Source: a virus. From it: a stretch of 40,285 bases of DNA. Of this stretch, positions 6,498-40,285 are shown piece by piece (position 1 is the first letter of the stretch; each line of letters begins with the position of its first letter). Position numbers and translations under genes: made by a program. The notes under the pieces are model-generated. The model was not told where the DNA came from, made no database searches, and saw nothing but the letters and a program-made list of their open reading frames with translations. The stretch spans positions 1 to 40,285 of IMG/VR virus record IMGVR_UViG_3300009034_000105; one strand, written 5' to 3'.

Positions 6498-6674
6498 TCA
6501 CCTCCTACTATGCTTTATCTTATACCTTGCGACCTTACCGATTATCTTGAAAATTTCAGCCTCATTAAGAATAGTACCAACACGGGAGATGTAATCATCC
6601 ATCTCCCTTATTAGTGGGTCACTTGGTTTACTTACACCATAGTTTTTTAATACTCGTATTGCTATGCTACTCAT
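6498..6674 (-). CDS. Hypothetical 58-residue protein, paralogue of the next upstream gene
   Basis: Begins MSSIAIRVLKNYGVSKPSD and is helical and basic. Its first 30 residues match those of the gene at 6681-6830 (A..VL.N.GV..P......D..I), so the two look like tandem duplicates. Its last codons form the AGGAGG ribosome site of the basic protein that follows. Function unknown. Confidence 0.6.
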   Translation of the reverse strand: MSSIAIRVLKNYGVSKPSDPLIREMDDYISRVGTILNEAEIFKIIGKVARYKIKHSRR

Positions 6675-6680
6675 TTTGTG

Positions 6681-6830
6681 TTACTGTCGCTGTTGTCTGT
6701 CTTTCCTCTCTTGCTGCCGCTTGACAATGTTCCCTTTCTCTTTAATCAACTCATCAATTTTCTTAACCTGTTTTTCAGTAGGATTAGGAACACCTACATT
6801 TCTCAATACTTTTTTCGCTTCATCACTCAT
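6681..6830 (-). CDS. Hypothetical 49-residue protein
   Basis: Begins MSDEAKKVLRNVGVPNPTEK and ends in a Gln/Arg-rich helix (KRQQERKDRQQRQ). The ATG overlaps the stop of the upstream gene (ATGA). The N-terminal 30 residues resemble the product of 6498-6674. Function unknown. Confidence 0.6.
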   Translation of the reverse strand: MSDEAKKVLRNVGVPNPTEKQVKKIDELIKEKGNIVKRQQERKDRQQRQ

Positions 6831-6955
6831 CTTTTTCGCCTCTTTCCTCTCTTGTGTGGTTTTTGTCCTGTCGATTTAATACAGATTGCATAGGCACTCT
6901 TCACACCTTTTTGCTTCTTAACTTTCTCGACACATTTTTTTAATTTTTTCGGCAT
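6827..6955 (-). CDS. Small Cys-containing basic protein (MPKKLKKCVEKV... type)
   Basis: 42 residues: MPKKLKKCVEKVKKQ, then SAYAICIKSTG and a basic tail. The KCVEK...SAYAIC.KSTG pattern recurs in small proteins next to terminase and portal genes of many phages. A GGAGG site precedes the ATG (6962-6966). Role unknown. Confidence 0.65.
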   Translation of the reverse strand: MPKKLKKCVEKVKKQKGVKSAYAICIKSTGQKPHKRGKRRKR

Positions 6956-6973
6956 TTTCTACCTCCAATTATA

Positions 6974-8431
6974 CTACATTTTTGTTTGCTTGTCAAGTGT
7001 TAACTCTTCAAAATATTCTATAGGTATCCTGCTCTCCAGACCATACTTTTTTATTAAGTCACGGTAATACGGTAATTTTAATCGTGGGTCGAAGGGGGAG
7101 TCAATGTACCGCTGTTCCCGGAACGCAATATTATCGAGCTCCATTATCCCATACCGCAGACAGTCCATCAGGTCATCCCTCTGTTTTTTAGGTTCTTCCT
7201 TGACTATCTGGTCAAATTCTTCAAGTGTCGCATCAACCCATATATATTCAAGTAATTCATCAACCAATGGTTTAGTTCTGCCTTTAAAGAAATACAATCC
7301 TGCATACTCACCCCCATCCTCATCAGTTTTAATTGTCAACCGGTTCTTAACTTTCTCGATACCGACTGTTTTATTCTTATTAGCATATCGGATTAAGAAC
7401 CCAAGATACTTCCTTAACTCCTGTCTTACAGAAGTTTTACTTGTCTGCTCTTTACTCTGTGCCTTACTATCAATAATTACCTCGTTTCGCTTTATCCCAT
7501 ACCTATCCATAAAAATATCTATTTGTCTCGCAAGAGTTTCTACACCGATACCGCTTTTCTTGAACACATCGACACAATATATCGTATTACCTTCTTTATC
7601 ATAAATCAAGACAACCAAACCTGTTGGATGAGTCATACCGGTATCTATAGCCAGAATCTTCTTAGCATTTTTGATATCAAAGTTCTCTAAAAAATCGTCA
7701 ACTAAGTGAAAGTCCATATCGAATTCAGGGTAAACAAGCCCGGAGAAACTATCTTCTTCGCAGTTGAGATACCGCTTACACCAATCTTCACTATGTACCA
7801 TACGAAGCATATCCTCATAATCATCGGGTAGATACGGGTTATCTCTTGTCCTTACTTTCCACGCCTTGAACATTGGGTTATCTCTCTGGTCTCTTAACCA
7901 TAAACGCCATAAATAATTATGACCTTCCCAAGTGCTACAAAGTACCATTTCCCTTTTAATAGACTCGCCAAATATAGTTTCAGTCTTTCTAAGCCGGGTC
8001 ACCCAATATTTTATTATGAGTTCCTTTATCTCACTTGCCTCATCGAACATAACGAATCCAACTTCCTCACTACCATATTCAGTTACTGGTAAGTTCATCG
8101 GGTAGAATTGTATTTGACTTCTATTCCTTAATGTAAGGAGCATACTTGTTTTTTCCCAATCTTTTGACCAATTACTCACAAGGTCATATTTTCTACATAA
8201 CTCTATTGTTTTCTTGACCAATGTTTTCCTTAAAAATTTTTCTACTCTCCTGCCGAGTACACCATAATTACCTGGAAACCAAGTCGAAAGAAGAAGGGCT
8301 TGATAACAAAGCGAAGTTGTTTTTCTTGCCCCTACTCCTCCATATATCCACTTGAACCTGGCTGGATGTGTCGGAAAATCTGATAGTTTAGGAATAGGTT
8401 TATAATCTGAAAAGTCTGCTGCTTGATTCAT
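6974..8431 (-). CDS. terL: Terminase large subunit (ATPase and nuclease)
   Basis: 485 residues. N-terminal packaging ATPase: P-loop GGVGARKTT (residues 31-39) and Walker B VGFVMFDEASE with the DE pair at about 130-131. C-terminal RNase H-like nuclease: ILAIDTGMTHPTG (first Asp), VIIDSKAQSKE (second Asp) and DDLMDCLRYGI (last acidic residues). It drives genome packaging into proheads and cuts concatemers, docked on the portal. ATGA overlap with the small subunit gene. Odd point: the residue before the P-loop Lys is Arg, not Gly or Ser. Confidence 0.93.
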   Translation of the reverse strand: MNQAADFSDYKPIPKLSDFPTHPARFKWIYGGVGARKTTSLCYQALLLSTWFPGNYGVLGRRVEKFLRKTLVKKTIELCRKYDLVSNWSKDWEKTSMLLTLRNRSQIQFYPMNLPVTEYGSEEVGFVMFDEASEIKELIIKYWVTRLRKTETIFGESIKREMVLCSTWEGHNYLWRLWLRDQRDNPMFKAWKVRTRDNPYLPDDYEDMLRMVHSEDWCKRYLNCEEDSFSGLVYPEFDMDFHLVDDFLENFDIKNAKKILAIDTGMTHPTGLVVLIYDKEGNTIYCVDVFKKSGIGVETLARQIDIFMDRYGIKRNEVIIDSKAQSKEQTSKTSVRQELRKYLGFLIRYANKNKTVGIEKVKNRLTIKTDEDGGEYAGLYFFKGRTKPLVDELLEYIWVDATLEEFDQIVKEEPKKQRDDLMDCLRYGIMELDNIAFREQRYIDSPFDPRLKLPYYRDLIKKYGLESRIPIEYFEELTLDKQTKM

Positions 8432-9024
8432 TCTGGTAATTCCGTATTCCTTATAACTTTTGTTATTTTCGTTGGTACAACAATATTATCAGGTTTAGGT
8501 TTCTCAAAATGACTAATCACAGTAAATGACTTTTTGCTCTGGTCTATCTCGACCTTCTGCTCCAATAGCCCGAGTAACTTGTCCTCCAATTCCTCATATT
8601 TAAGAAGTTGTCCATAATATTTCTCTTTTATTTTTGCAATTTGCTGGTCTTGTATTGTCATATCACTACTAAAAACTAATTTTTCTAAATCCTCTTTTAT
8701 CTTTTGTTTTAATTGTCTTGTTTTTGCAAGCTGTGGTACGATTACAGTTTTATTATTAGTGAAAACTATAAGCTGTTCACCTATCGCATCAAGAGCTTTT
8801 TTTATTGTATAAAGAGAAGTGTTTAATTTTCTTGCAACTTGTAGCTCAGACTCACAATCAATATACTCTTGATATATCTTTAGGTATTGTGCCTTTTTTT
8901 TCGGGGCTAATTCATCAAATTTTTCTTGTGCTTTAAGAAACTGTTTTTCAGTTTCGCTTAAATTTTGTGTTGCCTCTTGTAATTCTTTAAGGTCGTTACG
9001 GACTTCTTCTATTTCATTACCCAT
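8428..9024 (-). CDS. Putative terminase small subunit
   Basis: 198 residues. The N-terminal 40 residues form a coiled coil (EIEEVRNDLKELQEATQNLSE); residues about 50-80 look like a helix-turn-helix (SELQVARKLNTSLYTIKKAL), as small terminases use to bind DNA; the rest is a long helix then a beta/extended tail. It overlaps terL by ATGA. It is the first gene of the minus-strand unit, and its ATG lies only 9 nt from the -10 box, so its mRNA may be leaderless. Assignment rests on position, the helix-turn-helix and coiled-coil build. Confidence 0.7.
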   Translation of the reverse strand: MGNEIEEVRNDLKELQEATQNLSETEKQFLKAQEKFDELAPKKKAQYLKIYQEYIDCESELQVARKLNTSLYTIKKALDAIGEQLIVFTNNKTVIVPQLAKTRQLKQKIKEDLEKLVFSSDMTIQDQQIAKIKEKYYGQLLKYEELEDKLLGLLEQKVEIDQSKKSFTVISHFEKPKPDNIVVPTKITKVIRNTELPE

Positions 9025-9032
9025 TGTTAATA

Positions 9033-9061
9033 ATTATAGTGCAATCTTGGAATTTTGTCAA
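9033..9061 (-). promoter_or_regulatory. Consensus sigma70 promoter for the late/structural unit
   Basis: Minus strand: TTGACA (9061-9056), 17-nt spacer, TATAAT (9038-9033), both hexamers matching consensus exactly. The expected start site (about 9025-9026) falls 0-2 nt before the small terminase ATG at 9024. No ribosome site can fit, so the first gene is probably translated from a leaderless message. Confidence 0.85.
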
Positions 9062-9103
9062 GGGAAATGTGCCTATTATAACTGAAATAAAAAAATTCAT
9101 AAC

Positions 9104-9125
9104 TTGCACTTTTTCAGAAGTGCAA
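9104..9125. repeat. Hairpin upstream of the late promoter
   Basis: TTGCACTT (9104-9111) / AAGTGCAA (9118-9125), perfect 8 bp with a 6-nt loop. It lies 43 bp upstream of the late -35 box. It could be a repressor or activator site for the late promoter, or a weak terminator for leftward transcripts (T-rich stretch beyond on the minus strand). Confidence 0.6.
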
Positions 9126-9247
9126 AAAGTTTATAATTGATATATTGTATGAATGTTATATAGTATTTAAGTGAAAAAAAAAACAGGTGTTTTTTCTGGT
9201 TTCTTTCTAACTGCCATTATATGTATATGATAGGATAATATGTCAAA

Positions 9248-9376
9248 AAAAAACCCATCCACCCTTTTTAAGTTGGGGTTACCGAAAAGTTGGATTCTTA
9301 TATTATGTATATTTAGGCAAGATTATATTATATATCTTTCGGTAACCCTATATTTTTTATGTACGATGGGTTTTTT
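9248..9376. repeat. Nested inverted repeat set 1
   Basis: Outer arms AAAAAACCCATC (9248-9259) / GATGGGTTTTTT (9365-9376) and inner arms GGGTTACCGAAA (9276-9287) / TTTCGGTAACCC (9337-9348), each a perfect 12 bp. The spaces between outer and inner arms are 16 nt on both sides, and the loop is 49 nt. T runs border both ends, so it could act as a bidirectional terminator, a cruciform or a folded RNA. Confidence 0.8.
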
Positions 9377-9424
9377 ATTATTATTATTATTATTAAAGAG
9401 TATTATTATTATTAAGAATAATAA
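9375..9424. repeat. TTA/ATT microsatellite tract
   Basis: About seven TTA units, an AAGAG break, then further ATT units and AATAATAAA. Almost pure A+T, directly between the two nested repeat sets; suitable as a DNA unwinding element. Confidence 0.7.
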
Positions 9425-9461
9425 AATTATATAACTGTTACTATATATATAATTATATTGT

Positions 9462-9744
9462 TGTAGTAAACAAGTGTTAAGTAGTATTAATGAAGTTAAA
9501 ATGTGATAAATCCTGTTTTTTTGATACCCGTTTTTTACAATTATACAGAAAAGTATTGTTTTTGTAAGGCTATGGTGTGGGGGGTTTCTCATAAATATAT
9601 TATCAAATAAGCCTCTCTACCCCGCCCAATAATCTGTATAATTGTAAAAAATCGAAGTCCCTATGAAATTAACATCTGGGATATTGTGAAATTATTATAT
9701 CTCAACATCTTATTCTAAATATTACTTAACACTTGTTTGCTATA
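9462..9744. repeat. Nested inverted repeat set 2
   Basis: Outer arms 9462-9488 / 9718-9744 pair over 27 positions: 16 consecutive Watson-Crick pairs (9468-9483 / 9723-9738) extended on both sides with three G-T pairs and no other mismatch. Inner arms 9531-9548 / 9634-9651 are a perfect 18 bp (TTTTTTACAATTATACAG and its complement). The three G-T pairs are G-U on a plus-strand RNA but would be A-C on the minus strand, so a plus-strand RNA fold is favoured. A 283-bp terminal-repeat element is the alternative. Confidence 0.8.
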
Positions 9745-9865
9745 CAAATCAAGGGTCGAAAATCAAATAACCGTCAAATAAGATTACAGGGAAACGGTGT
9801 CCCAATGTTTTTTCGGGGTGTGGGTTTTTTTTCGACGATTCGATATTCCTTAACTCCGTATCAAT

Positions 9866-9915
9866 TTACTAACAGGTTGTTAATAGTTATTAACAAATTG
9901 TTAATAACTTTTTTT
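9866..9915. promoter_or_regulatory. Tandem dyads D1 and D2 with T-run
   Basis: D1: TTACTAAC-AGGTT-GTTAATA (9866-9885). D2: AGTTATTAAC (9885-9894), AAATT, GTTAATAACT (9900-9909), perfect 10 bp, followed by a run of seven T. Both share the TTAAC/GTTAA core with D3 near the early promoter. Likely binding sites of one dimeric protein; D2 plus the T-run also resembles a weak plus-strand terminator. Confidence 0.6.
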
Positions 9916-10057
9916 GGCACAGTGAAATTACATCGAGTATTTTCATCGTCAATATTTTAATAGTCTATTTACTATTATAATAACAAGTTACAAAGCCCTT
10001 GTTTGGATAAAATGCTAAAATTCTGATAAAAAACCAAAAATAATTTGATTTTAAAAG

Positions 10058-10078
10058 TTACTAACAGGTTGTTAGTAA
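10058..10078. promoter_or_regulatory. Dyad D3, repeat of D1, 76 bp before the early promoter
   Basis: TTACTAAC-AGGTT-GTTAGTAA, perfect 8-bp arms. Its first 17 bases repeat D1 exactly (9866-9882). The pair of identical sites about 190 bp apart suggests a looping repressor or an initiator iteron. Confidence 0.6.
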
Positions 10079-10153
10079 GTATATAATTGTTGTTATAATT
10101 ATGAGTTACAGATTTACAACAAAAATGGTGTATCAAAAAAAGTGAAAATAAAC

Positions 10154-10182
10154 TTGACTTTTCTCATATTATACACTATATT
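10154..10182 (+). promoter_or_regulatory. Early promoter
   Basis: TTGACT (10154-10159), 17-nt spacer, TATATT (10177-10182). The start site should be near 10189. It drives the plus-strand unit that begins with the gene at 10221. The first nine bases (TTGACTTTT) recur in the internal promoter at 14349. Confidence 0.75.
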
Positions 10183-10190
10183 ATATATAT

Positions 10191-10206
10191 GATATTAGAT
10201 AATATC
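10191..10206. promoter_or_regulatory. Palindrome at the early transcription start
   Basis: GATATTA-GA-TAATATC, perfect 7-bp arms, lying between the predicted start site and the AAAGGAGG ribosome site. A likely operator, or a 5'-UTR stem that affects translation of the first early gene. Confidence 0.55.
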
Positions 10207-10220
10207 AAAGGAGGTAAAGT

Positions 10221-10412
10221 ATGATTAAACAAATAGCTATTTTTAGCGAATGTCATATATCAAAACTTCAAGAAAGAATTAATAAATTTCTTCAACTTGA
10301 ATTAATGGAAAGTATAAATATAATTTCAGTAACTCAATCCGAGAGTTGCGATGCTGCAGGAGCTTCATCTTTTACAATATCAATACTTTACGAAAGTTTA
10401 GAAAGGAGGTAA
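10221..10412 (+). CDS. Small protein resembling the Cse60 (DUF2758) family
   Basis: 63 residues, first gene of the early unit, strong AAAGGAGG site. The pattern is a short strand (IAIF), an amphipathic helix (LQERINKFLQLE), then two strands ending SFTISILYE. This resembles the roughly 60-residue Cse60-like sporulation/phage family, whose function is unknown. Family call is tentative. Confidence 0.7.
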   Translation: MIKQIAIFSECHISKLQERINKFLQLELMESINIISVTQSESCDAAGASSFTISILYESLERR

Positions 10413-17670: not shown

Positions 17671-17997
17671 ATGAGCAAGATATATGTAACTAATAAGAGT
17701 GGTCATAATATTGAGCCTGCCCTTCAGTTCGGTGACGATATTATATATCTCACTGAGGGTAAGGTCAATATATTCCGGACTGATGACTTGATAGAGGACT
17801 TGAAAGAAAAGTTAAAAGACTTCAATAGCGAGGATTATTTAATATTTACAGGTAATTCTATTGTATCAGGACTTGCTTTATCTATCCTTTTCACAAAATT
17901 ACCGGCAATTCATTTACTCTTATTCAATGCGAAAAGTATTGAATATGTATCCAGGTTAGTTGAGAATACGAGATTAAATTTGAAGGAGGCAAAATAA
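17671..17997 (+). CDS. Conserved phage protein of unknown function
   Basis: 108 residues. Pattern: SGHNIEPALQFGDDIIYLTEGKVN, then NSEDYLIFTGNSIVSGLAL and HLLLFNAKSIEYVSR. I recall this layout in many phage early regions, with no known role. AAGGAAG site upstream. Confidence 0.7.
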   Translation: MSKIYVTNKSGHNIEPALQFGDDIIYLTEGKVNIFRTDDLIEDLKEKLKDFNSEDYLIFTGNSIVSGLALSILFTKLPAIHLLLFNAKSIEYVSRLVENTRLNLKEAK

Positions 17998-17998
17998 T

Positions 17999-18460
17999 AT
18001 GGAACAAAACTGGAAGCATAAAGATACGAAGAATCTTGTCAAGTATTTTCTCGATATTCTGAAAGATAAGGCGAAAGCCGAGAATAAGATAAAGGAATAC
18101 AATAAACATATATCAGAGATAGATACTTTTCTTGCGAACAGGATGGTAGATGAAAGTGTAGATAAATTGGCTATCGATGGTATAGAATTCAAGCCGATTG
18201 ACGAGGAACAGTTCAGTCTTGACAATGAGAAAACAGAATATAAAATTTGGGACAATCCCGATTTTTTTGAATGGTTAAAAAAGATTGGCGAGGATGGGTT
18301 AATAAAAGTTAAAGAGACAGTACACCCGCAGACCCGTACTAAATTCTTAAAAGAGATGAGAGAACAGAATATAGAATTACCTGAATGGATTAAAGTTGCA
18401 TTCTATACGCACCTGAAATATAATAAATCGGCAGTCGGGAGGTTGGTTGATAATGAATGA
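17999..18460 (+). CDS. Conserved phage early protein, coiled coil
   Basis: 153 residues. An N-terminal helix rich in K, A and E (DILKDKAKAENKIKEYNKHI), then IDGIEFKPIDEEQFSL and a C-terminal WIKVAFYTHLKYNKSAVGRL. It sits two bases after the previous gene and next to nuclease and SSB genes, so a DNA metabolism role is possible. No named family recognised. Confidence 0.65.
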   Translation: MEQNWKHKDTKNLVKYFLDILKDKAKAENKIKEYNKHISEIDTFLANRMVDESVDKLAIDGIEFKPIDEEQFSLDNEKTEYKIWDNPDFFEWLKKIGEDGLIKVKETVHPQTRTKFLKEMREQNIELPEWIKVAFYTHLKYNKSAVGRLVDNE

Positions 18461-18725
18461 TAAATTTTGGAAGTGGATGCAAGAGAAAAAATATTGGGAA
18501 GTAGTTGAATGTGAATTTGGATACGGTGTTCATATATGCGATGAGGTTTTAAGATGTCCTACTTGTCAAGGCTGTAAAGATAATATTTCAAAACAAATGC
18601 TAATCGGTTATATGATTGAGTACTTAATTGAAATAAAAGCACCATTTCAGATACACTGGAAGATAAAATATATTACCCCTATTTATGATTATTTAAAGGG
18701 AATAATCGAGAGGGAAAGCAAATGA
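18453..18725 (+). CDS. Cys-containing hypothetical protein
   Basis: 90 residues from the ATG at 18453 with GGGAGG 10 nt upstream; a TTG at 18447 is too close to that site. Contains C-x2-C-x2-C (CPTCQGC), a likely metal site, and a Trp/Lys-rich N-terminus. ATGA overlap with the nuclease gene. Confidence 0.6.
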   Translation: MNDKFWKWMQEKKYWEVVECEFGYGVHICDEVLRCPTCQGCKDNISKQMLIGYMIEYLIEIKAPFQIHWKIKYITPIYDYLKGIIERESK

Positions 18726-19066
18726 ATGAATCAGCATTAAGAAATAAGGTCAGGGATTATCTTAAAAATAAAGATGGTTGGTATCGTAAAATTCCCTGTA
18801 ATATTTATCTTTCAGGTATCCCTGATTTTATCGGTTCTATTAATGGCAGGTTCATTGCAATCGAATTGAAACGAGATAATAAGGGCAAACTTACAAAGTT
18901 ACAAGAGATAACGATTAAAGAAATTAAAGAGAAAGGAGGTGGTATAAGTTTTGTAGCTTATGGTTGGTCGGACTTCATTAGGAAGTTCGAATTTATTTAT
19001 GAGGAGATTATGAAATGGAAAAACCAAAAAATAACTTACCGGCAAAAAGAAAGAAAAGGTCAATAA
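18722..19066 (+). CDS. VRR-NUC domain nuclease
   Basis: 114 residues, the size of stand-alone phage VRR-NUC proteins. Catalytic set of the PD-(D/E)XK type: GIPDF with Asp35, then FIAIELK with Glu48 and Lys50, and a GKLTKLQ helix next to it. The N-terminal Glu3 fits the conserved first acidic residue. Cleaves branched DNA such as Holliday junctions, probably trimming replication or recombination products before packaging. Overlaps the SSB-like gene by 52 nt. Confidence 0.88.
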   Translation: MNESALRNKVRDYLKNKDGWYRKIPCNIYLSGIPDFIGSINGRFIAIELKRDNKGKLTKLQEITIKEIKEKGGGISFVAYGWSDFIRKFEFIYEEIMKWKNQKITYRQKERKGQ

Positions 19067-19878
19067 GCAAAGATGTCAATTTTGATAAGTATTTTGATGA
19101 TAGTTATGATGACAATATTGACAGGAAGGATATAAAACTACCCCGAATCAAGATAATTCAGGGTAGCTCGAAAGATAAAGGCAAAGGCAAAGATGGCGAA
19201 TTTATCAATAGCATTACAAATGATTGCTATGGTAAACCAATAAAAATAATTCCAATTTTTCATTGGAAATCTCAAGTTATGTTTGATGAAAAATTAAATA
19301 TGATAGCACAAAGCCTTGACCATATAGTTTCTAATTTTGGTGATTGCAGAGGAACTTTTTGTAAAGATTGCAAACTTCAAAAATGGAATGGCGATGTTCC
19401 TCCTGATTGTAATGAAGTATTTAATTTTGCTATTGCTTTTCCTGAAGAATTGGATGAAATAATAAAAAATAGAGTAATGTTACCACCATTGATATTAAGT
19501 TTAATGCGTACTGGTACAACAGCAGCTAAATATATGGTAACTAACATAAGAATAAATCGAGGTAGGAAAATTCCTATCTGGGCTAATATTATAGAAATAA
19601 CAACATATCTTAAACAATTTCCAACACAGCCTGCTTGGGTACCGAAAGCAAAGATTGTCGGAGTAGTTAATCCTAAAGAAAAAATCAAAGCTGATTACTT
19701 GGATAGATTACATAGAAGCTATAAAGAAATGAGACTTAATGTTTCTTTTGATGATTTGATTCAAGATGTTGAGGAAACTGAAAGCCCGAAGAAAAGGAAG
19801 CCTGTAAAAAGAAAAGAAATAGTTATTGAGGAACAGGTTGGTTCTCCTTCGGAAGATGAGAGCGAAATACCATTTTGA
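19015..19878 (+). CDS. Putative single-stranded DNA-binding protein
   Basis: 287 residues. Basic N-terminus, then LPRIKIIQGSS, a beta-rich body with a four-Cys cluster (CRGTFCKDCKLQ... C, about 103-125) and a C-terminal acidic tail ending DESEIPF, the tip by which SSB proteins bind partner proteins. The layout matches the large phage SSB-like proteins that lie beside VRR-NUC and helicase genes. The call rests on the tail, body pattern and context. Confidence 0.65.
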   Translation: MEKPKNNLPAKRKKRSISKDVNFDKYFDDSYDDNIDRKDIKLPRIKIIQGSSKDKGKGKDGEFINSITNDCYGKPIKIIPIFHWKSQVMFDEKLNMIAQSLDHIVSNFGDCRGTFCKDCKLQKWNGDVPPDCNEVFNFAIAFPEELDEIIKNRVMLPPLILSLMRTGTTAAKYMVTNIRINRGRKIPIWANIIEITTYLKQFPTQPAWVPKAKIVGVVNPKEKIKADYLDRLHRSYKEMRLNVSFDDLIQDVEETESPKKRKPVKRKEIVIEEQVGSPSEDESEIPF

Positions 19879-19898: not shown

Positions 19899-19977
19899 AA
19901 GAGGCACGGTGGCGTAAATGGAGTAACGCTAATAAGGCTTGCCAAAGATGTAGGTTCGAGTCCTGCCCGTGCCTCTT
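19899..19977 (+). tRNA. tRNA-like element without a proper anticodon stem (degenerate tRNA or tRNA mimic)
   Basis: Acceptor GGCACGG/CCGTGCC (19903-19909 / 19967-19973), extended by paired bases to 11 bp (19899 and 19977). D-arm GCGT/ACGC with GG in the loop (19912-19929). T-arm GTAGG-TTCGAGT-CCTGC (19950-19966) is canonical. Between D and T arms there are only 20 nt, which contain a TTGCCAA loop-like string (anticodon GCC, Gly) but no 5-bp stem around it. No CCA is encoded. Not a working tRNA on this evidence. Confidence 0.5.
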
Positions 19978-23555: not shown

Positions 23556-25710
23556 GTTCATCTGTTCTGAATGTACTTACATTAAAGAAGATGACGGGTT
23601 TTGTAATATTAAATCAGTTAAAACAACCTCCGAGACTTCAATGTGCAGGGAGGGCATTGAAGAAAAAATACGCAGGGGTAATGAACTTCTCGAAAAATAT
23701 AGAAAAGATAAGAATAAAAAAAACGAAGATATATTATTAAAAAGGATTATACAATACCAGAAGAAACTTGCCGAATTGACAGAAAAAGATATTGAAAAAG
23801 CGGAAGAAGATTCCATAAAATTTCATAAAGTACCTATACAACTAATTAGTAAGTCTAAATATTATAATAAAGATATTCAGATAGATTGTGTTTTAATGGG
23901 AAAAGATTACGAATCATATATAATTCCGAAAAGGATAATTGCATCTTGTAAATCTTTAAATAGAATAATGCAAAGATGTGCACTTTGTCCATTATACAAA
24001 AAGGAAAAAAAATTTGAAATAAATTATTTGAAACACCGGGATATTATACTTGATATGATAGACATAACTTCTAATCAGTTAATCGGTATCATAAGAAAAA
24101 ATCTCATACTGCCAAAATGTATTAATATCAATCTCAATATTGTTGAAGAACAGAATATAGAAATGTTGCAAGTTATACCCGAACTCCAGTCGGAGATGAT
24201 AGATTACCAATACACAATTAAAAGAGCTTTGTTTATGGGTGAAGGACTTGAAACGAATTTAAGTTATAATATGCAGGGAACTACACTTCCTGATAGTAAG
24301 AATCAACTTGCTCTCTTTCTTGTCAAAAATGCTATAAAGAGCGAAGATGATATATCTAATTTTAAATTGACAAAAGATATAAAAGAAAAATTAAAGAAAT
24401 TCCAGCTTGAAAAAGGTCAGAGTATATCGGAAAAGTTAAATGAGATATATGAGGATTTTACTCATACTGTTGAACCCCGTATTTATGGCAGGAAAAACCT
24501 GCATTTCGCTGTTGATTTAGCTTACCATTCAGTATTGAGTTTCAATTTCCTTGATGAGTTTGTAAATCGGGGCTGGATAGAAGTTCTTTTAATTGGAGAT
24601 ACGAGATGCGGTAAGACTGAGCTTGTCAAAAAAATGGTAAAACATTACGGGATAGGCGAATTCGTAACAAGCGGAGAGAATACATCTTTTGCCGGCTTAG
24701 TGGGTGGAGTACAGCAGACCGGTAAACACTGGATGTTGAATTGGGGAAAATGGATATTAAATAACCGTAGGTTAATTGTAATAGATGAAGCTGATGGCAT
24801 TGAACCCGACATGCTTGGTAAATTGAGCGGTTTAAGAAGTAGCGGTATTGCTGAAATTGTTAAGATGGGTCAAAAAGAAAAGACTATGGCAAAGACAAGA
24901 GTAATATGGATAACTAACCCGAAACGAGGCAACCTCAAAAGGTATAGTTTTGGAATACAAAGTATTAAAGAGATATTTCACAGACTTCAGGATATATCGA
25001 GACTTGATTTCGTGGTGGGGGTGGCTAAAGATGATGTCCCAATAGATGTCATAAATAAAAAATATCACAAAACAACTATGAGACAGAAATATAAAAAAGA
25101 TTTGTGTCATTCACTTGTAATGTTTGCCTGGAGTCGTAAGCCCGATAACATAAAGTTCACCGAAGAAACAGAGGATTTCATATTAAAAAAATCTATTGAG
25201 CTTGATAAAATGTATAGTTATAATATACCACTGGTTACCGGTGCGGAGATGAGAATAAAACTTGCTAAAATGGGTATAGCTTTAGCCTGCAGGCTATATA
25301 GTGTAGATAAGAGCAGTGAGAATATTGTAGTTGAGAAACAGCATATCAAGTTCATTGTGGATTATTTAAACCAAGAATATTCAAGAAATTGTTTAGATTA
25401 TTTGTCTTATTCAGATCAAAAAAGACAAGAGAATTCTATAAGTGATAAACATAAATTACAAGAATTAATAGATTGGGATATAGAGAAAATTTCACTGTTC
25501 CTGAATCTGAACCAATACACAATAGGTGATATTCAAGATATATTAGAGACTGGCAGTAAAACTGAAACTAAAGGATTCATAACCCGGTTTGTTAAATTAA
25601 GAGCATTAAGAAAATCCCGTACATATTATATAAAAACACCGGCATTTATCGAATGGTTGAAAGATTTAAAAAGCAAAATAGCTAAAGATAAAGATGAGGT
25701 ATTTTTTTGA
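23539..25710 (+). CDS. MCM-like AAA+ replicative helicase
   Basis: 723 residues. Residues 7-37: four-Cys module. Then a charged linker and N-terminal domain with a second Cys group (CALC, about 152-155). AAA+ core: VEPRIYGRKNLHFAV (about 312-326), P-loop GDTRCGKTEL (about 352-361), Walker B LIVIDEADGI (about 412-421), sensor 1 VIWITNP, and SRLDFVVGVAKDD (about 487), like the MCM SRFD arginine finger and following strand. A C-terminal winged-helix-like region follows. Probably unwinds DNA at the phage origin. MCM-type helicases are typical of archaea and eukaryotes and less usual in phages. Confidence 0.8.
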   Translation: MPKAIKFICSECTYIKEDDGFCNIKSVKTTSETSMCREGIEEKIRRGNELLEKYRKDKNKKNEDILLKRIIQYQKKLAELTEKDIEKAEEDSIKFHKVPIQLISKSKYYNKDIQIDCVLMGKDYESYIIPKRIIASCKSLNRIMQRCALCPLYKKEKKFEINYLKHRDIILDMIDITSNQLIGIIRKNLILPKCININLNIVEEQNIEMLQVIPELQSEMIDYQYTIKRALFMGEGLETNLSYNMQGTTLPDSKNQLALFLVKNAIKSEDDISNFKLTKDIKEKLKKFQLEKGQSISEKLNEIYEDFTHTVEPRIYGRKNLHFAVDLAYHSVLSFNFLDEFVNRGWIEVLLIGDTRCGKTELVKKMVKHYGIGEFVTSGENTSFAGLVGGVQQTGKHWMLNWGKWILNNRRLIVIDEADGIEPDMLGKLSGLRSSGIAEIVKMGQKEKTMAKTRVIWITNPKRGNLKRYSFGIQSIKEIFHRLQDISRLDFVVGVAKDDVPIDVINKKYHKTTMRQKYKKDLCHSLVMFAWSRKPDNIKFTEETEDFILKKSIELDKMYSYNIPLVTGAEMRIKLAKMGIALACRLYSVDKSSENIVVEKQHIKFIVDYLNQEYSRNCLDYLSYSDQKRQENSISDKHKLQELIDWDIEKISLFLNLNQYTIGDIQDILETGSKTETKGFITRFVKLRALRKSRTYYIKTPAFIEWLKDLKSKIAKDKDEVFF

Positions 25711-26330
25711 AATTAGAGAATCATCTATATTATGAGACGGAACTTGGGAAGCAATTTTTTGGGAACAATCTTGATTTATTACCATTGGTAAAAGAGAAAG
25801 CTGATTTTGGCTTTGCAGACCCACCTTATGGGATAAATAAAGCAGAATGGGACAATGAATTTAGTCATTTTTTTATTAACTTTTTTCAAAATAAAGTGTA
25901 CGGTGGAGAGATTACTTGTGGTGATAATAATATTGCAAAATGTATAAATGAATTAAATGAATATAAAGGAATAATGCACAATTTTAATAAAAATGGTATG
26001 ACTTTCAATAAAGTAGGTTTTGAAAATGTTATTACAGGAATATTATTTGGTAAAATAAAAAGAGGGCAGAATTATATTGCTTTTTCTATAAGGCAAGATA
26101 AACCTAACCATCCTTCTCCAAAACCAATTGAAATGATGATAAAAACGATTAGACGATTTACAAATAAAAACGATTTAGTCCTTGACCCATTTCTTGGCTC
26201 GGGCACAACAGCAGTAGCTTGTGAAAAACTAAACCGTCGATGGATAGGAATAGAGATAAACGAAAAGTATTGCGAGATAGCAAAACAAAGAATTTATGCC
26301 GAAGTAGTACAAGGTAAGTTAAAATATTGA
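25707..26330 (+). CDS. DNA adenine-N6 or cytosine-N4 methyltransferase, beta-type order
   Basis: 207 residues from a TTG overlapping the MCM stop; GAGG lies 8 nt upstream. Catalytic motif DPPYG at 38-42, then HPSPKPIEMM and the SAM-binding LDPFLGSGTTAVACEKL at about 160. The order catalytic-then-SAM motif is the beta arrangement. It is shorter than most relatives, with a small target-recognition region. Likely modifies phage DNA against host restriction, working alongside the ArdC-like protein; target site unknown. Confidence 0.88.
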   Translation: MKLENHLYYETELGKQFFGNNLDLLPLVKEKADFGFADPPYGINKAEWDNEFSHFFINFFQNKVYGGEITCGDNNIAKCINELNEYKGIMHNFNKNGMTFNKVGFENVITGILFGKIKRGQNYIAFSIRQDKPNHPSPKPIEMMIKTIRRFTNKNDLVLDPFLGSGTTAVACEKLNRRWIGIEINEKYCEIAKQRIYAEVVQGKLKY

Positions 26331-30800: not shown

Positions 30801-32055
30801 GTACAGGATTAACTAATTCAACTTCTTTACCTCTACCTCCAGTCATTGCAAAATTTGCTATTGTTTTTTGTGCTTCTGGTGAATTACCTCGCTCAGCCAA
30901 TTTTATTAATAGATTCTTTTTTAAAGTTTCTTGTATTCTTGATTTTTTTATAGCATTATAAATAGCTTTATCAGTTCCCATTCTACTTAATTGAGATAAA
31001 TTGACAACTCCCATTGTTAATAGAATAGAAAGTAAATCTTCTTTATCTATTCTACCATCTTTAATTAATTGTGAAGTTACAGCCCAACCACCGCTAACAC
31101 CAGTAGCAGCTAAATGTCGAGGTATAAATTTTTTTATTGGTAATCTACCAAGAACTGCACCGAAACCAAAATTACTTATTCCAACTTTCAATAAGTCTGG
31201 AGCATCAAATCTCTTTTCCCTTACTTGTTTTATAGCCCGATCACTTATTCCTTTAACCGCCCAGGCAAAACCTTCTGTTGCCATTCTTGTAACCCATTTT
31301 AACATATTCGGAGTCAATTTTGCTAAAAATGGCATAGTCTTAAATGATTTTACAATTATTGGTACAACTGCAAGTTGTTTTAATAAATACAATGAAGTGC
31401 TAAAACCAGCTATATTACCAATCACATTATAAAATTTATATATATCACTATTCGGTTTATAATCAGTTGTATCTTTACCAATAAAACCACCTGAAAAACC
31501 ACCTGAAAAACTATCCATAATATCTGTAATTGTCGATAATCTTGATTTTCTTCTTTTCCAAAATATTTTTCTGTCTCTTTCACTTAATTTTTTGAATATC
31601 TCTTCATCTATCTCTATTTGTTTTCTTCTTTCTAAATTAATTATTCCTTGCTTAATTCTATCGGGCTCTGTTATCTCTATTTTCCCAACTTTCTCTTTTA
31701 ATGCTTCCGGCACTCTCCAGTCTATCTTTTCTTTTATCATAGTTATATTTTCTTTTATCATTTCAACATCTTCTTTAGTTGCTTCAGGTTTGACCTTGAT
31801 TCCAAGTTCCCTTCCTATCTTTTCATAATTTATTCTCTCTTTAGAAACTGCCGGTAAGTATTCTTCAATCCTGATTGTAGGATCATATTTCCTTAGATTA
31901 GTCAATATTTTTTTGTCGGTATAATCTATAAATTCAGGGAAAGCTTTTTTAAAATTGGTAGGATTCTTTAACTTTTCCCATATCCAAGTATCGCTCTTTT
32001 CTGGATAGGATTCAGGATAGCGTCTTTTAAACTCATTAATAATAATATTTGCCAT
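27892..32055 (-). CDS. Very large internal virion/ejection protein
   Basis: 1387 residues, by far the longest single-frame gene wholly inside the window. The N-terminus holds a small domain (INEFKRRYPESYPEKSDTWI). Hydrophobic stretches lie at about 215-245 and 320-340; very long basic helices occupy about 350-800; the C-terminus is basic with aromatic patches (MFSSWTLNNYF, YTRQYFKGLIPFYY). Size, lack of signal and place before the endolysin match T7 gp16-type proteins that leave the head and span the cell envelope. No lytic transglycosylase motif is visible. No clear ribosome site; probably coupled to the gene before it. Confidence 0.65.
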   Translation of the reverse strand: MANIIINEFKRRYPESYPEKSDTWIWEKLKNPTNFKKAFPEFIDYTDKKILTNLRKYDPTIRIEEYLPAVSKERINYEKIGRELGIKVKPEATKEDVEMIKENITMIKEKIDWRVPEALKEKVGKIEITEPDRIKQGIINLERRKQIEIDEEIFKKLSERDRKIFWKRRKSRLSTITDIMDSFSGGFSGGFIGKDTTDYKPNSDIYKFYNVIGNIAGFSTSLYLLKQLAVVPIIVKSFKTMPFLAKLTPNMLKWVTRMATEGFAWAVKGISDRAIKQVREKRFDAPDLLKVGISNFGFGAVLGRLPIKKFIPRHLAATGVSGGWAVTSQLIKDGRIDKEDLLSILLTMGVVNLSQLSRMGTDKAIYNAIKKSRIQETLKKNLLIKLAERGNSPEAQKTIANFAMTGGRGKEVELVNPVQTVFMLRFGQLYSKVHNKYKKRFADLYMRRMKTYLDKKLPTHEAADKAFQEIENILLRYKDYRNSAMLTKNYITRFVYELKKGNPIKKSLENTKRIVKEFADFRKIAVDMKKFRKTDISMLNRLRGLIGKDKVTKKDLAKLFLREKTKITEKIFSKLSKEQIKNLKVEFKKTAPIVAKSTSIQEAEFLARQRLIRNTTKLAIERLDIKPETKKEAIKFVDNRINQVIKQFKDAKKLSKEGIRIKEISPLQMVTELERKKDISTAYKKLSEGLYKELKNFKTLTKDEKTGILSSSYLGTWLKGKGLLQEGRKITDIKEFKKFLPFFEKREINEINFVAKRLIGITKQEIPPQLMIHTEGRPLGVGVTSPITPADYTLSKYGLTFAADEMTDAMTAPMIASEMKSIFINKLMKEHKKLAKVNKINFKQSLKNLWEYMDKGDLVKDKLNKFELDKAKILRTETLEMFDKVNYIRRMAGQKEILRLNDYITHILKPTILNDIYTTGTIPVQLAKAMRYIPTRSLFLRTAQHRVDKLLDHLIIKDPYKSMRAMYSINLRYIYTAKAMQRLQPIKYIIQDSSKFDATVVRFMENQMRTLAKRPLKFEENINNTLENLFSGTLRTMGMKISKRPWRDTVNLVSALSHLAYLDMRPKFFIRNVGGQGASVWAMEGTAAFTWAIKHMFSKKGKRILKLIGEYKTRIPMEAAEKSFMNKLWRGAFLNVSASDNLNVRTAILASFYRGIKRFKNVRLAVEYAQREFRTTQWSYLRVNLPPILQSDTGRMAFMFSSWTLNNYFRRIPEIIRRAFKGYDVWGNKVGLTERLALFRFITWGAASQSLKLANVNFMWQLYQAQGLTTPPGFAPILRGAWYLNRTIIDFANGRDNLAYQNWYYTRQYFKGLIPFYYTGKDIKDVATGKKPYKSLFFYQYKFEKKPKTIEQIQQRKIKKELDSMKKTKSLIKLQQKRLIKELKGLR

Positions 32056-37410: not shown

Positions 37411-37801
37411 TTCTTGTCATATCCTTCCTAAAAATAAGGTTTCCTCTTATAGCTGTATAAACTTTATCAATCTTACTAAATTCTACATCGAAAGGAAAAA
37501 TATCTGATCTCAAAACTTTAGTATTGTCGCTATCTAACAATATAGCCATTTGATTGATTTCAGTCAAGTTATAATCTATTGCCTGATTATCAACAGATAA
37601 ATATATCCCGTTTGGAACTCCACTAATCCTTGTTTTCTGTATAACTGAATCTTGATTTTCATATTCGTCTCTCAATGTAAATCTCAAATTAAAAACAGAT
37701 AAATTGACAAGTTCTCTATTTAAATCAAAAAAAGCTAATTTTATAAGTACACTATCCGCTCTGTAAACCAGATAATCAAAGTCCTCTGTTGGTTTTGCCA
37801 T
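37403..37801 (-). CDS. Small beta-rich tail-region protein, 132 residues
   Basis: ATG at 37801 chosen with GAGAGG 8 nt upstream; a TTG at 37807 is too close to it. Beta pattern: DYLVYRADSVLIKLAFFDLN, FNLRFTLRDEYENQDS, YTAIRGNLIFRK. The ligand-like layout recalls N-terminal baseplate/fibre adaptor domains (BppU type). Likely a structural adaptor of the tail, not proven. Confidence 0.55.
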   Translation of the reverse strand: MAKPTEDFDYLVYRADSVLIKLAFFDLNRELVNLSVFNLRFTLRDEYENQDSVIQKTRISGVPNGIYLSVDNQAIDYNLTEINQMAILLDSDNTKVLRSDIFPFDVEFSKIDKVYTAIRGNLIFRKDMTRNA

Positions 37802-37803
37802 TA

Positions 37804-37950
37804 TCAAACCTCTCTTATATTATAGTCTATAATTCTCAAGTTTTCAATAATCAATTTCAAATTCTCATTATAAATATTTACCTTTTCTTCATCAGTCATT
37901 TCAGAATCAATATATTTTAAGTTTAATTGTAAATTTTTATAATCAGGCAT
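37804..37950 (-). CDS. Hypothetical 48-residue protein
   Basis: Begins MPDYKNLQLNLKYIDSEMTD; helical with acidic middle. The ATG overlaps the stop of the giant tail gene (TAATG). Its last codons hold the ribosome site of the following gene. No family recognised. Confidence 0.5.
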   Translation of the reverse strand: MPDYKNLQLNLKYIDSEMTDEEKVNIYNENLKLIIENLRIIDYNIREV

Positions 37951-40285
37951 TACCGCATCCTCGCCAGTTTATCGTAACCTATAACAATCTCGTCAATTTC
38001 CGCAGGGCTTCGATTCGCATCTTCACTTGATATTTCAACCTCCATTTTTTTGCCAATGCCATTATAAATCATAGTCTCAGCAATATGAATATTTTTTGCT
38101 TTCCTGATATTCGGTTCACCCCACCTATAGTCATTGTCAATAGTATAATTTAATACAACATCAGTAAAATATTTACCGGCAATTCTTATAAGCTTATAAA
38201 TTTTATTGAATCCTACAGTACCTATATCAAACGCCTTTGTTTTAATTTTCCATTTTATCTTATGTCCATCATCATTATTCTCTTTCATAAGTTCAAATAT
38301 TTTTGGTTCAGATGTCCCATCACCATTAGTTCTAACAGCACTTAATAAAGTTTTGAATTTATTTGTCTGAATATCAAATAAGCTATTCTCATCCATAATA
38401 GGATCGTAATATTCATAGTCTCTCCAGTAATTATATTTCTGATTATATAGAAAAATACGATTATTTTCTATACTATCCCCTATCGGAATATGGAATTTTA
38501 TCTCCGATTTTGCCCAGTCAACCTCGATAAATGCTTTATCTATTGCACTAAAATTTATACTGTCCGGATTCTTAGTATCAAAATAATCTCTCAATCTCTC
38601 GTGTTCTATATTCATAACCCTATTACCTGCAATATGATATATACCATACTGATTAAGAAAATAGACAATATCATTTAATTCGTCTATGAGGTTGGGATTT
38701 TGACAACCTATTTTTTTAGATATATCAAGCAACTGACCTCTATCAACTTCACCAAGTATAGCATATATCTTACCCTGTTTAAATAAATAACAATAATCTC
38801 TTACCGATATACCGGCAACTAAAGTATCTCCATCTCCACTTTCTATTGGGCGTACATTATCGGGTGGTATATTTTCAGGATTATCTATTGCTGAATGCAT
38901 AAGCAAATTACTATTTTCTTCATCAAGTTTATTTATCATAACAAACTGGTTTTTATGTACTAAAAATTGATTGAATTTGAATCTTCTTGATGATAACGTT
39001 TCTTGATAATAAGATTTTGGTATATATTCTGCATTTGCTTTTTTGTCATAATAATTTGTAACAGGAGTTACAAAATCAGTTATTGTATTCACTAAAAATG
39101 GCAACTCGTCCCAAGTAATACCATTTGAACTATCCTGTCTATAAATTTCTATTGCCTCAACATCATCATCCGCTGTGCCTGTGCTGTAATAATCTCCCAA
39201 GTCAAGTCCATAAACATCTATAGCATAACTATTAACAGCTCCGATATTTATTGGTTCTGTTTGTATTCCAATTAAAGTTTTCTGACCGCTTACAAAACGA
39301 TAAACCATAGCATAACGATAATATCTAATTTTTAATGTTGAAGTATCATCTATAACAACTTTATATTTAGGGCATTTAGGGGTATTCAATTTATGAATAA
39401 TATACTGCTGTTCCACACTCTCCCAATCAGAAATATTAGATTTCAAATAATAACCCAATTCAACTATTTGGTTACCACTAACCATATCCGCAACTCTTTC
39501 ATATAATTCTGATTTAGTTTCTTCAAGATTTAAAAGTAAGGAACTTTCTAAAAATTTATTCATTGTAATAGGATAAGTTAAAGAAGTATCATCTACTATA
39601 TTACATTTAAATTGAGTTGAATCCAGATTATAAGAATATAGATATTTCTTATCATTGAACTTATCTCCAAAATGCAAAAGATTTCTATAAACGAAAATAG
39701 GATTAAGTACTTCATTGTGAGTATATTTCTCAACACCGTCGGCTAATAATGTCAACGGAAGCCATCGTATTTGACCGTGTTCAGAATACATATTACCAGT
39801 GTCTTTGTTCAGTGTTAATAAGGCATTGTATTTTGAGATTTTAGGAGAAGAAAAGATTAAAGTGGTATATGCAGAGCCTACCTTACCAAATATACCATCG
39901 CTTTCTACTATAAATGGTTTGTAATATCCATTGATTATAATACCAACAATATAAGAAGAATCTATTTTGTATATAATACCATTTTTTGAATATAAATAAT
40001 TTTCGTTTGCTTTCCCCTCTAATATCTTTATTTCATTCCCACTACTATTCTTGAAAAAATAATCAGACTTAATATAAATTCCAAGATAATTAAAAAAAAC
40101 AGATGTGCCTATTCTTTCTGTTCTTCTAAAATAAAAATTTATAGGCGAAAAATATCCCTCAGATTGATTCTGTCTCTTCCAAAAATCAACATACCAATCA
40201 TTATCAAAACCATCTTTACCGGTTTCGTAAGTCCACCGACCATAAGAACTTATAACATTTGTATTACTGTTTCCAATTTTTTTAC
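37950..40285 (-). CDS. Giant tail hub/nozzle-like protein, C-terminal part (runs off right edge)
   Basis: Open from the right edge to a TAA at 37952-37950, checked codon by codon with no stop. The ATG at 39791 is an internal Met, not the start, because the frame continues upstream in good coding style. In phase with the frame at 1-1198 if the ends are joined: 3534 nt in all, 1177 residues. Beta-rich with WRDYEYYDP, YKVVIDDTSTLKIRYYRYAM and GDTLVAGISVRDYCYLFKQG, in line with beta-propeller tail hub or nozzle proteins. The N-terminal part is at 1-1198. Confidence 0.75.
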   Translation of the reverse strand, partial: KKIGNSNTNVISSYGRWTYETGKDGFDNDWYVDFWKRQNQSEGYFSPINFYFRRTERIGTSVFFNYLGIYIKSDYFFKNSSGNEIKILEGKANENYLYSKNGIIYKIDSSYIVGIIINGYYKPFIVESDGIFGKVGSAYTTLIFSSPKISKYNALLTLNKDTGNMYSEHGQIRWLPLTLLADGVEKYTHNEVLNPIFVYRNLLHFGDKFNDKKYLYSYNLDSTQFKCNIVDDTSLTYPITMNKFLESSLLLNLEETKSELYERVADMVSGNQIVELGYYLKSNISDWESVEQQYIIHKLNTPKCPKYKVVIDDTSTLKIRYYRYAMVYRFVSGQKTLIGIQTEPINIGAVNSYAIDVYGLDLGDYYSTGTADDDVEAIEIYRQDSSNGITWDELPFLVNTITDFVTPVTNYYDKKANAEYIPKSYYQETLSSRRFKFNQFLVHKNQFVMINKLDEENSNLLMHSAIDNPENIPPDNVRPIESGDGDTLVAGISVRDYCYLFKQGKIYAILGEVDRGQLLDISKKIGCQNPNLIDELNDIVYFLNQYGIYHIAGNRVMNIEHERLRDYFDTKNPDSINFSAIDKAFIEVDWAKSEIKFHIPIGDSIENNRIFLYNQKYNYWRDYEYYDPIMDENSLFDIQTNKFKTLLSAVRTNGDGTSEPKIFELMKENNDDGHKIKWKIKTKAFDIGTVGFNKIYKLIRIAGKYFTDVVLNYTIDNDYRWGEPNIRKAKNIHIAETMIYNGIGKKMEVEISSEDANRSPAEIDEIVIGYDKLARMR

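Follow-up and report, generated by a model that had tools for sequence, protein, structure and literature searches.

The crenarchaeal plasmid pRN1 requires a stem-loop in cis for its replication, and its relatives have kept the structure of this stem-loop and not its sequence (PMC4234260). Stem-loop origins like that of pRN1 have also been proposed for the phages BIP-1, BPP-1, and BMP-1 (PMC4234260). The MCM helicases described in bacteria come for the most part from phages and other mobile elements (PMC5862659), and we found no mapping in the literature of the replication start of phages with MCM-type helicases. Here we describe a bacterial virus that encodes such a helicase. Its IMG/VR record of about 40,286 bases, referred to throughout as the window, contains a 283-base element of two nested hairpins at 9462-9744 (Table 1), which we consider, with a probability of about one half, to be a structured DNA site that forms the stem-loop part of a replication-origin region.

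The element resembles the pRN1 origin (Berkner et al.) in several respects: both are large imperfect stem-loops in non-coding DNA, and both replicons encode an archaeal-type initiator/helicase with a winged helix. As to a structure that outlasts its sequence, nested repeats recur in 18 of 31 MCM phages (see below), but of the three nearest relatives two have only a weak repeat or none. There are also clear differences. The nested double repeat of the window covers 283 bp compared to 100 nt for the pRN1 stem-loop, which lies directly 3' of its replication gene, whereas the window element is located at a divergent junction (9.5 kb) with the MCM gene at 23.5-25.7 kb. Furthermore, the pRN1 helicase belongs to SF3 and is accompanied by an AEP domain, whereas the window helicase is an MCM with no AEP fused to it. 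Thus, of the features that we looked for in a pRN1-type origin, a large stem-loop in non-coding DNA is present, and because an AEP domain and a position next to the replication gene are not, we do not class the element with this type. The phage lambda origin, oriLambda, likewise has protein-binding repeats beside an A+T-rich stretch, but these are direct iterons inside gene O, and lambda lacks a comparable large nested repeat (its score of 17.0 in the survey described below is under the shuffle maximum).

Table 1. Coordinates of the element, its surroundings, and the relevant phage genes in the window.
Feature	Position	Strand	Basis
Outer arm, left	9462-9488	+	27 positions paired with 9718-9744, 24 Watson-Crick and 3 G·T
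Outer arm, right	9718-9744	+	Partner of 9462-9488
Inner arm, left, TTTTTTACAATTATACAGA	9531-9549	+	19-bp perfect match to 9633-9651
Inner arm, right	9633-9651	+	Partner of 9531-9549
Apical region; G-run GGTGTGGGGGG and C-run CTACCCCGCCC, mutually pairable	9573-9629		Predicted fold and sequence
100 bp with the highest A+T content of the genome (91%); candidate DNA-unwinding element; overlaps the first outer-arm bases	9371-9470		Composition
Second nested inverted repeat, bounded on each side by A/T tracts; arms 9248-9259/9365-9376 and 9274-9287/9337-9350	9245-9379		Bidirectional terminator-like hairpin
Two neighbouring dyads, type TTACTAACA-GGT-TGTTAGTAA; candidate protein-binding sites	9866-9907 (starts 9866, 9887)		Pattern scan, 2 and 4 mismatches to a perfect copy
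Third dyad, perfect, TTACTAACAGGTTGTTAGTAA	10058-10078		Pattern scan
Sigma-70-type promoter, TTGACA-17-TATAAT, late operon	9033-9061	-	12/12 consensus matches; motif match only
Promoter-like site, TTGACT-17-TATATT, before the early operon	10154-10182	+	10/12 matches; motif match only
First late gene, small-terminase-subunit position	8428-9024	-	No family match
Terminase large subunit (terL)	6974-8431	-	phrog_2, E 2e-24
First early gene	10221-10412	+	ORF with AAAGGAGGT ribosome-binding site
MCM replicative helicase; N-terminal domain, AAA+ domain, C-terminal winged helix	23539-25710	+	Pfam PF00493, E 1e-15

At spacers of up to 300, no perfect inverted repeat in the whole 40-kb window is longer than those formed by the two pairs of arms. 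The initial annotation had described outer arms with 27 positions, three G-T pairs, and no other mismatch, which we confirmed pair by pair; the inner repeat, given there as 18 bp, is indeed perfect but is 19 bp long, and can be extended to 20 by a G·T pair at 9530/9652 (plus strand). Its view that such arms are unlikely to arise by chance is also borne out: when the 1196-bp intergenic region was subjected to 2000 dinucleotide shuffles, perfect repeats of at least 16 bp were seen in seven, and neither a repeat of at least 19 bp nor a nested pair was seen in any. At the level of the genome, we scored chains of exact-seeded arms within 600 bp and compared them with block shuffles of the same genome, which preserve base composition in 200-bp blocks and not dinucleotides. 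The window scores 30.6 against a maximum of 21.7 in 20 such shuffles (z 8.8).

An open frame of 808 codons spans the joined ends of the record, indicating that it is circularly closed. From 9024 every late gene runs to the left and from 10221 every early gene to the right, and the two sets meet near 26.5 kb; there is therefore a single divergent junction, at 9025-10220, and the element lies inside it. It is located ~1 kb upstream of terL, with the terminase genes beginning ~0.4-1.0 kb downstream of it. The cumulative GC-skew minimum falls at 9022, next to the element. Since skew tracks gene direction here, we do not count it as independent evidence; we dropped its use as proof of an origin, as the unidirectional genomes of one IMG/VR phage (G034) and Youna2 have no internal minimum. 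The arm sequences are not in excess elsewhere in the genome, as dispersed iterons would be.

Several other features of the junction deserve mention. The nested repeat at 9245-9379 resembles a smaller version of the main element and would act as a bidirectional terminator. The three TTACTAACA-GGT-TGTTAGTAA dyads beside the early promoter (9866-10078) are likely sites for a phage regulator or initiator. We also note that only ~9 bases separate the end of the perfect -35/-10 match of the late operon from the ATG with which the first late gene begins (9024-9061), and therefore either the late transcript would have almost no leader or translation truly starts at a codon further inside the gene.

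The AlphaFold model of the window MCM (mean pLDDT 76) has its matches among full-length MCM chains of archaea and eukaryotes, and places the predicted winged helix at about residues 646-720. Homologues in Bacillus, Weizmannia, and Microbacterium phages are AEP-MCM fusions of ~1000 residues; the window phage has only the MCM part and lacks the AEP primase domain. The window TerL is ~24% identical to that of Paenibacillus larvae podoviruses (API480, SV21).

Close relatives of the phage and of the element were sought in several ways. A blastn search with the element returned nothing related from phages, plasmids, or the 201 genomes sampled from a single bacterial class, and an exact scan of IMG/VR with the inner arm gave two matches, both inside one unrelated gene. 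Searches with TerL peptides, SNF2 helicase peptides, and a Walker-A pattern found no close phage relatives, and scans with MCM and TerL profiles yielded distant relatives only. The MCM profile matched many IMG/VR phages, three of which, in full-length records (G016, G003, and G010), share both TerL (30-32% identity) and gene order with the window.

To ask how general the architecture is, we surveyed 31 MCM phages (26 genomes comprising 25 IMG/VR records and the window, four MCM isolates, and API480) and 19 controls without MCM. The controls, which belong mostly to one TerL lineage, were 15 IMG/VR records in which the absence of MCM was checked plus lambda, R3.3, LS06, and Lj965; the last four were taken as diverse isolates after a lambda-TerL scan for extra controls gave near-identical lambdoids, which were not used. 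A genome was scored positive when its best repeat exceeded the shuffle maximum by more than 2 and was mostly non-coding. By this measure, large nested inverted repeats are present in 18 of the 31 MCM phages and in two of the 19 controls (Fisher p 0.0008); as the MCM link was found by following the window, and is thus partly post hoc, we also calculated it without the window, and it holds (p 0.0012). When only the 3 kb upstream of terL were considered, repeats with z of at least 4 were found in 12/24 MCM phages and 0/19 controls (Mann-Whitney p 1.5e-4), the z values being 6.6 for the window and 5.5 for its nearest relative by TerL, G016. In the survey of whole genomes, the other 13 of the 31 MCM phages have no strong repeat, and these include the two other nearest relatives: in G003 the place corresponding to the element holds just a weak 13-bp pair, and G010 has none. 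API480 has only a modest repeat, elsewhere in its genome. One control (G049) carries a strong non-coding nested repeat at 37702-38053 (score 26.6, z 10).

The elements of this class are 120-600 bp long and have no sequence in common, and they are not copies of one another, since no two MCM genomes share more than 2% of their 20-mers. For half of those examined (10/20, the window and nine others) the most A+T-rich 100 bp of the genome lie in the element or within 400 bp of it, a placement expected by chance in ~2% of cases each, although non-coding DNA is A+T-rich in any event. A motif search over 22 elements recovered CACAATA in seven (0.9 expected) and CTCTCTC in seven (0.7 expected), and neither survives correction for the number of words. 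The word TCACAATA/TATTGTGA occurs in the elements of the window, G007, G017, and Wollypog, whose sequences are unrelated; this is suggestive, and is not significant after correction.

The cultured phages provide a useful comparison. The AEP-MCM loci of Bacillus phage BSTP10, Weizmannia phage Youna2, and the Microbacterium Krampusviruses encode homologous MCMs (30-33% identity to that of the window) and, like the window, have an inverted repeat in a non-coding gap by an A+T-rich stretch. Unlike in the window, the repeat is just upstream of the AEP-MCM gene (39733-39967 in Youna2, 1429-1613 in BSTP10), and it has no sequence similarity to the window element. Youna2 has two large hairpins, at 6637-7058 and 39733-39967, one 2.2 kb upstream of terL and the other just upstream of the AEP-MCM gene, and these have in common a 23-nt arm, TTGGAAAGGAGTGTAAAGTTCAA, whose 19-nt core has no further copy in the 50 kb of Youna2 searched. 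In the Krampusviruses, the arms are made of short repeated units, unlike those of the window element: the gap before AEP-MCM holds an inverted array of CCCACAAT/ATTGTGGG units (31675-31778 in Hager and the same gap in L339-L345), which is absent elsewhere in the first 50 kb of Hager and is kept in two subclades with diverged flanks.

The anatomy of the element, its A+T-rich neighbour, and its position, together with an MCM gene in the phage and the finding that such elements recur among MCM phages but are rare in controls, support an origin. The function itself, the identity of the binding protein, and the formation of hairpins in vivo are what we infer; of the two possibilities favoured by the initial annotation, a cruciform origin is the one that we prefer. 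Initiation could proceed as follows. The phage MCM, through its winged-helix domain, and/or a partner protein, as the most likely initiators, would gather at the nested repeat and the nearby dyads, and the A+T stretch at 9371-9470 (91%) would melt. The exposed strands could then fold into the nested hairpins, which would either keep the bubble from closing or offer their loop sequences as sites at which the helicase is loaded and priming takes place; two forks would then depart, one running with early and the other with late transcription. Eukaryotes and archaea depend on dedicated loader proteins to load MCM, and we recognised no such protein in the window phage. Such an origin could reveal a minimal form of MCM loading, with DNA structure in place of loader proteins.

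It is conceivable, though we hold this with somewhat less assurance than the reading of the window element as part of an origin, that MCM phages share a class of structured origins: a large nested palindrome next to the stretch of highest A+T content in the genome, found in most cases where the terminase/late operon or the AEP-MCM gene begins, with its shape under selection and its sequence turning over completely, the window element being one member. The recurrent nested palindrome also provides a concrete cis-element in phages that are in culture (Youna2, BSTP10, and the Krampusviruses). Many elements of the class adjoin terminase genes and not the MCM gene, which would also fit a packaging or late-control site.

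One such site would control transcription at the early/late switch, the arms serving as paired operators through which a regulator loops the DNA or insulates the divergent promoters. The position of the element between divergent operons, a -35/-10-like site on the minus strand in the left arm (9480-9452), and the three dyads nearby are all consistent with this. Transcription control leaves the long exact inner arms, the A+T-rich neighbour, and the MCM link unexplained, however, and several elements of the class lie in codirectional regions. We consider this reading unlikely; it would not conflict with an origin located there as well.

We regard as similarly unlikely that the element yields, early or late in infection, a structured non-coding RNA of plus-strand sense, ~283 nt long and with the outer arms as its closing stem; a functional plus-strand RNA was the other possibility favoured initially. 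The plus strand folds well as RNA (-84.8 kcal/mol, z -8.3 against shuffles), 13.5 kcal/mol better than the minus strand, but the latter also folds strongly (-71.3 kcal/mol, z -7.0). If the arms were maintained as RNA, G·U would be expected as the usual mismatch on the transcribed strand, and A·C only seldom. All three exceptions in the outer arm are G·U on the plus strand, as are 11 against 3 A·C over the whole element, but the corresponding probabilities are only 0.16-0.25 and 0.06. Across 13-14 comparable elements in related phages there is no consistent strand bias (G·U:A·C counts include 16:14, 15:16, 4:4, 5:9, 8:11, 4:10, 4:10, and 7:6), and one of 14 elements departs from composition at p<0.05. 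Because neither G·U nor A·C is consistently favoured among the arm mismatches of the class, the RNA argument is weak.

A TATAAT at 9448-9453 has no -35 partner, there is no terminator after 9744, and no pair of a two-hexamer promoter and a terminator frames the element. Rfam searches at gathering and permissive thresholds gave no credible match for the element (no covariance-model match at E<=5 in the region) and none for 20 related loci beyond sub-threshold microRNA models on perfect hairpins, which were discarded as weak. The large ornate phage RNAs ROOL and GOLLD (PMC12286853) are, like the element, long structured elements in phage genomes, but neither these models nor an RNA-type mismatch bias could be detected in the region and over the class, respectively. 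The element is not an intrinsic terminator, as it lacks a terminator U-tract at either end (flanks TACAAATCAAGG and CAACAATATAAT), and U-tracts after the stem are almost absent from both strands in the class, the exception being BboS-125 on one strand. Nor is it assigned to retron msr-msd, there being no reverse transcriptase among the scanned ORFs (all those >210 aa included). As a class, the elements look like DNA palindromes; for the window taken by itself, RNA becomes a less likely reading, and the earlier case for a plus-strand RNA is not supported.

A DNA packaging site, that is, a pac/cos region recognised by terminase, is slightly less probable still. It would account for the ten phages, among those with an identified terL, whose strongest repeat is found upstream of this gene at a distance of no more than 2.5 kb, but none of the 19 control phages, which have other replication genes, has such a repeat there, and in BSTP10 and the Krampusviruses the repeat is by the AEP-MCM gene, far from the terminase. 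Finally, a mobile element remnant (MITE), suggested by terminal inverted repeats that enclose ~280 bp, is very improbable: as the initial annotation had held in arguing against a decayed transposon, and as the search for MITE copies that it proposed now bears out, the element is present in single copy in its own genome, has no match in phages, plasmids, or the 201 genomes of one class, is flanked by no target-site duplication, and contains a second, inner perfect repeat that is not a MITE feature.

We also note three features of the early region. A DNA methylase ORF with a TTG start (25707-26330) is possibly truncated; its match to the N6_N4_Mtase model is confined to the C-terminal part. The early operon contains a single tRNA-Leu gene, with anticodon AAG, at 19903-19975. 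Three early genes (17671-19878) match families named after cyanophage Pam3 (gp32, gp33, and gp34), similarities that seem to point to an old shared replication module.
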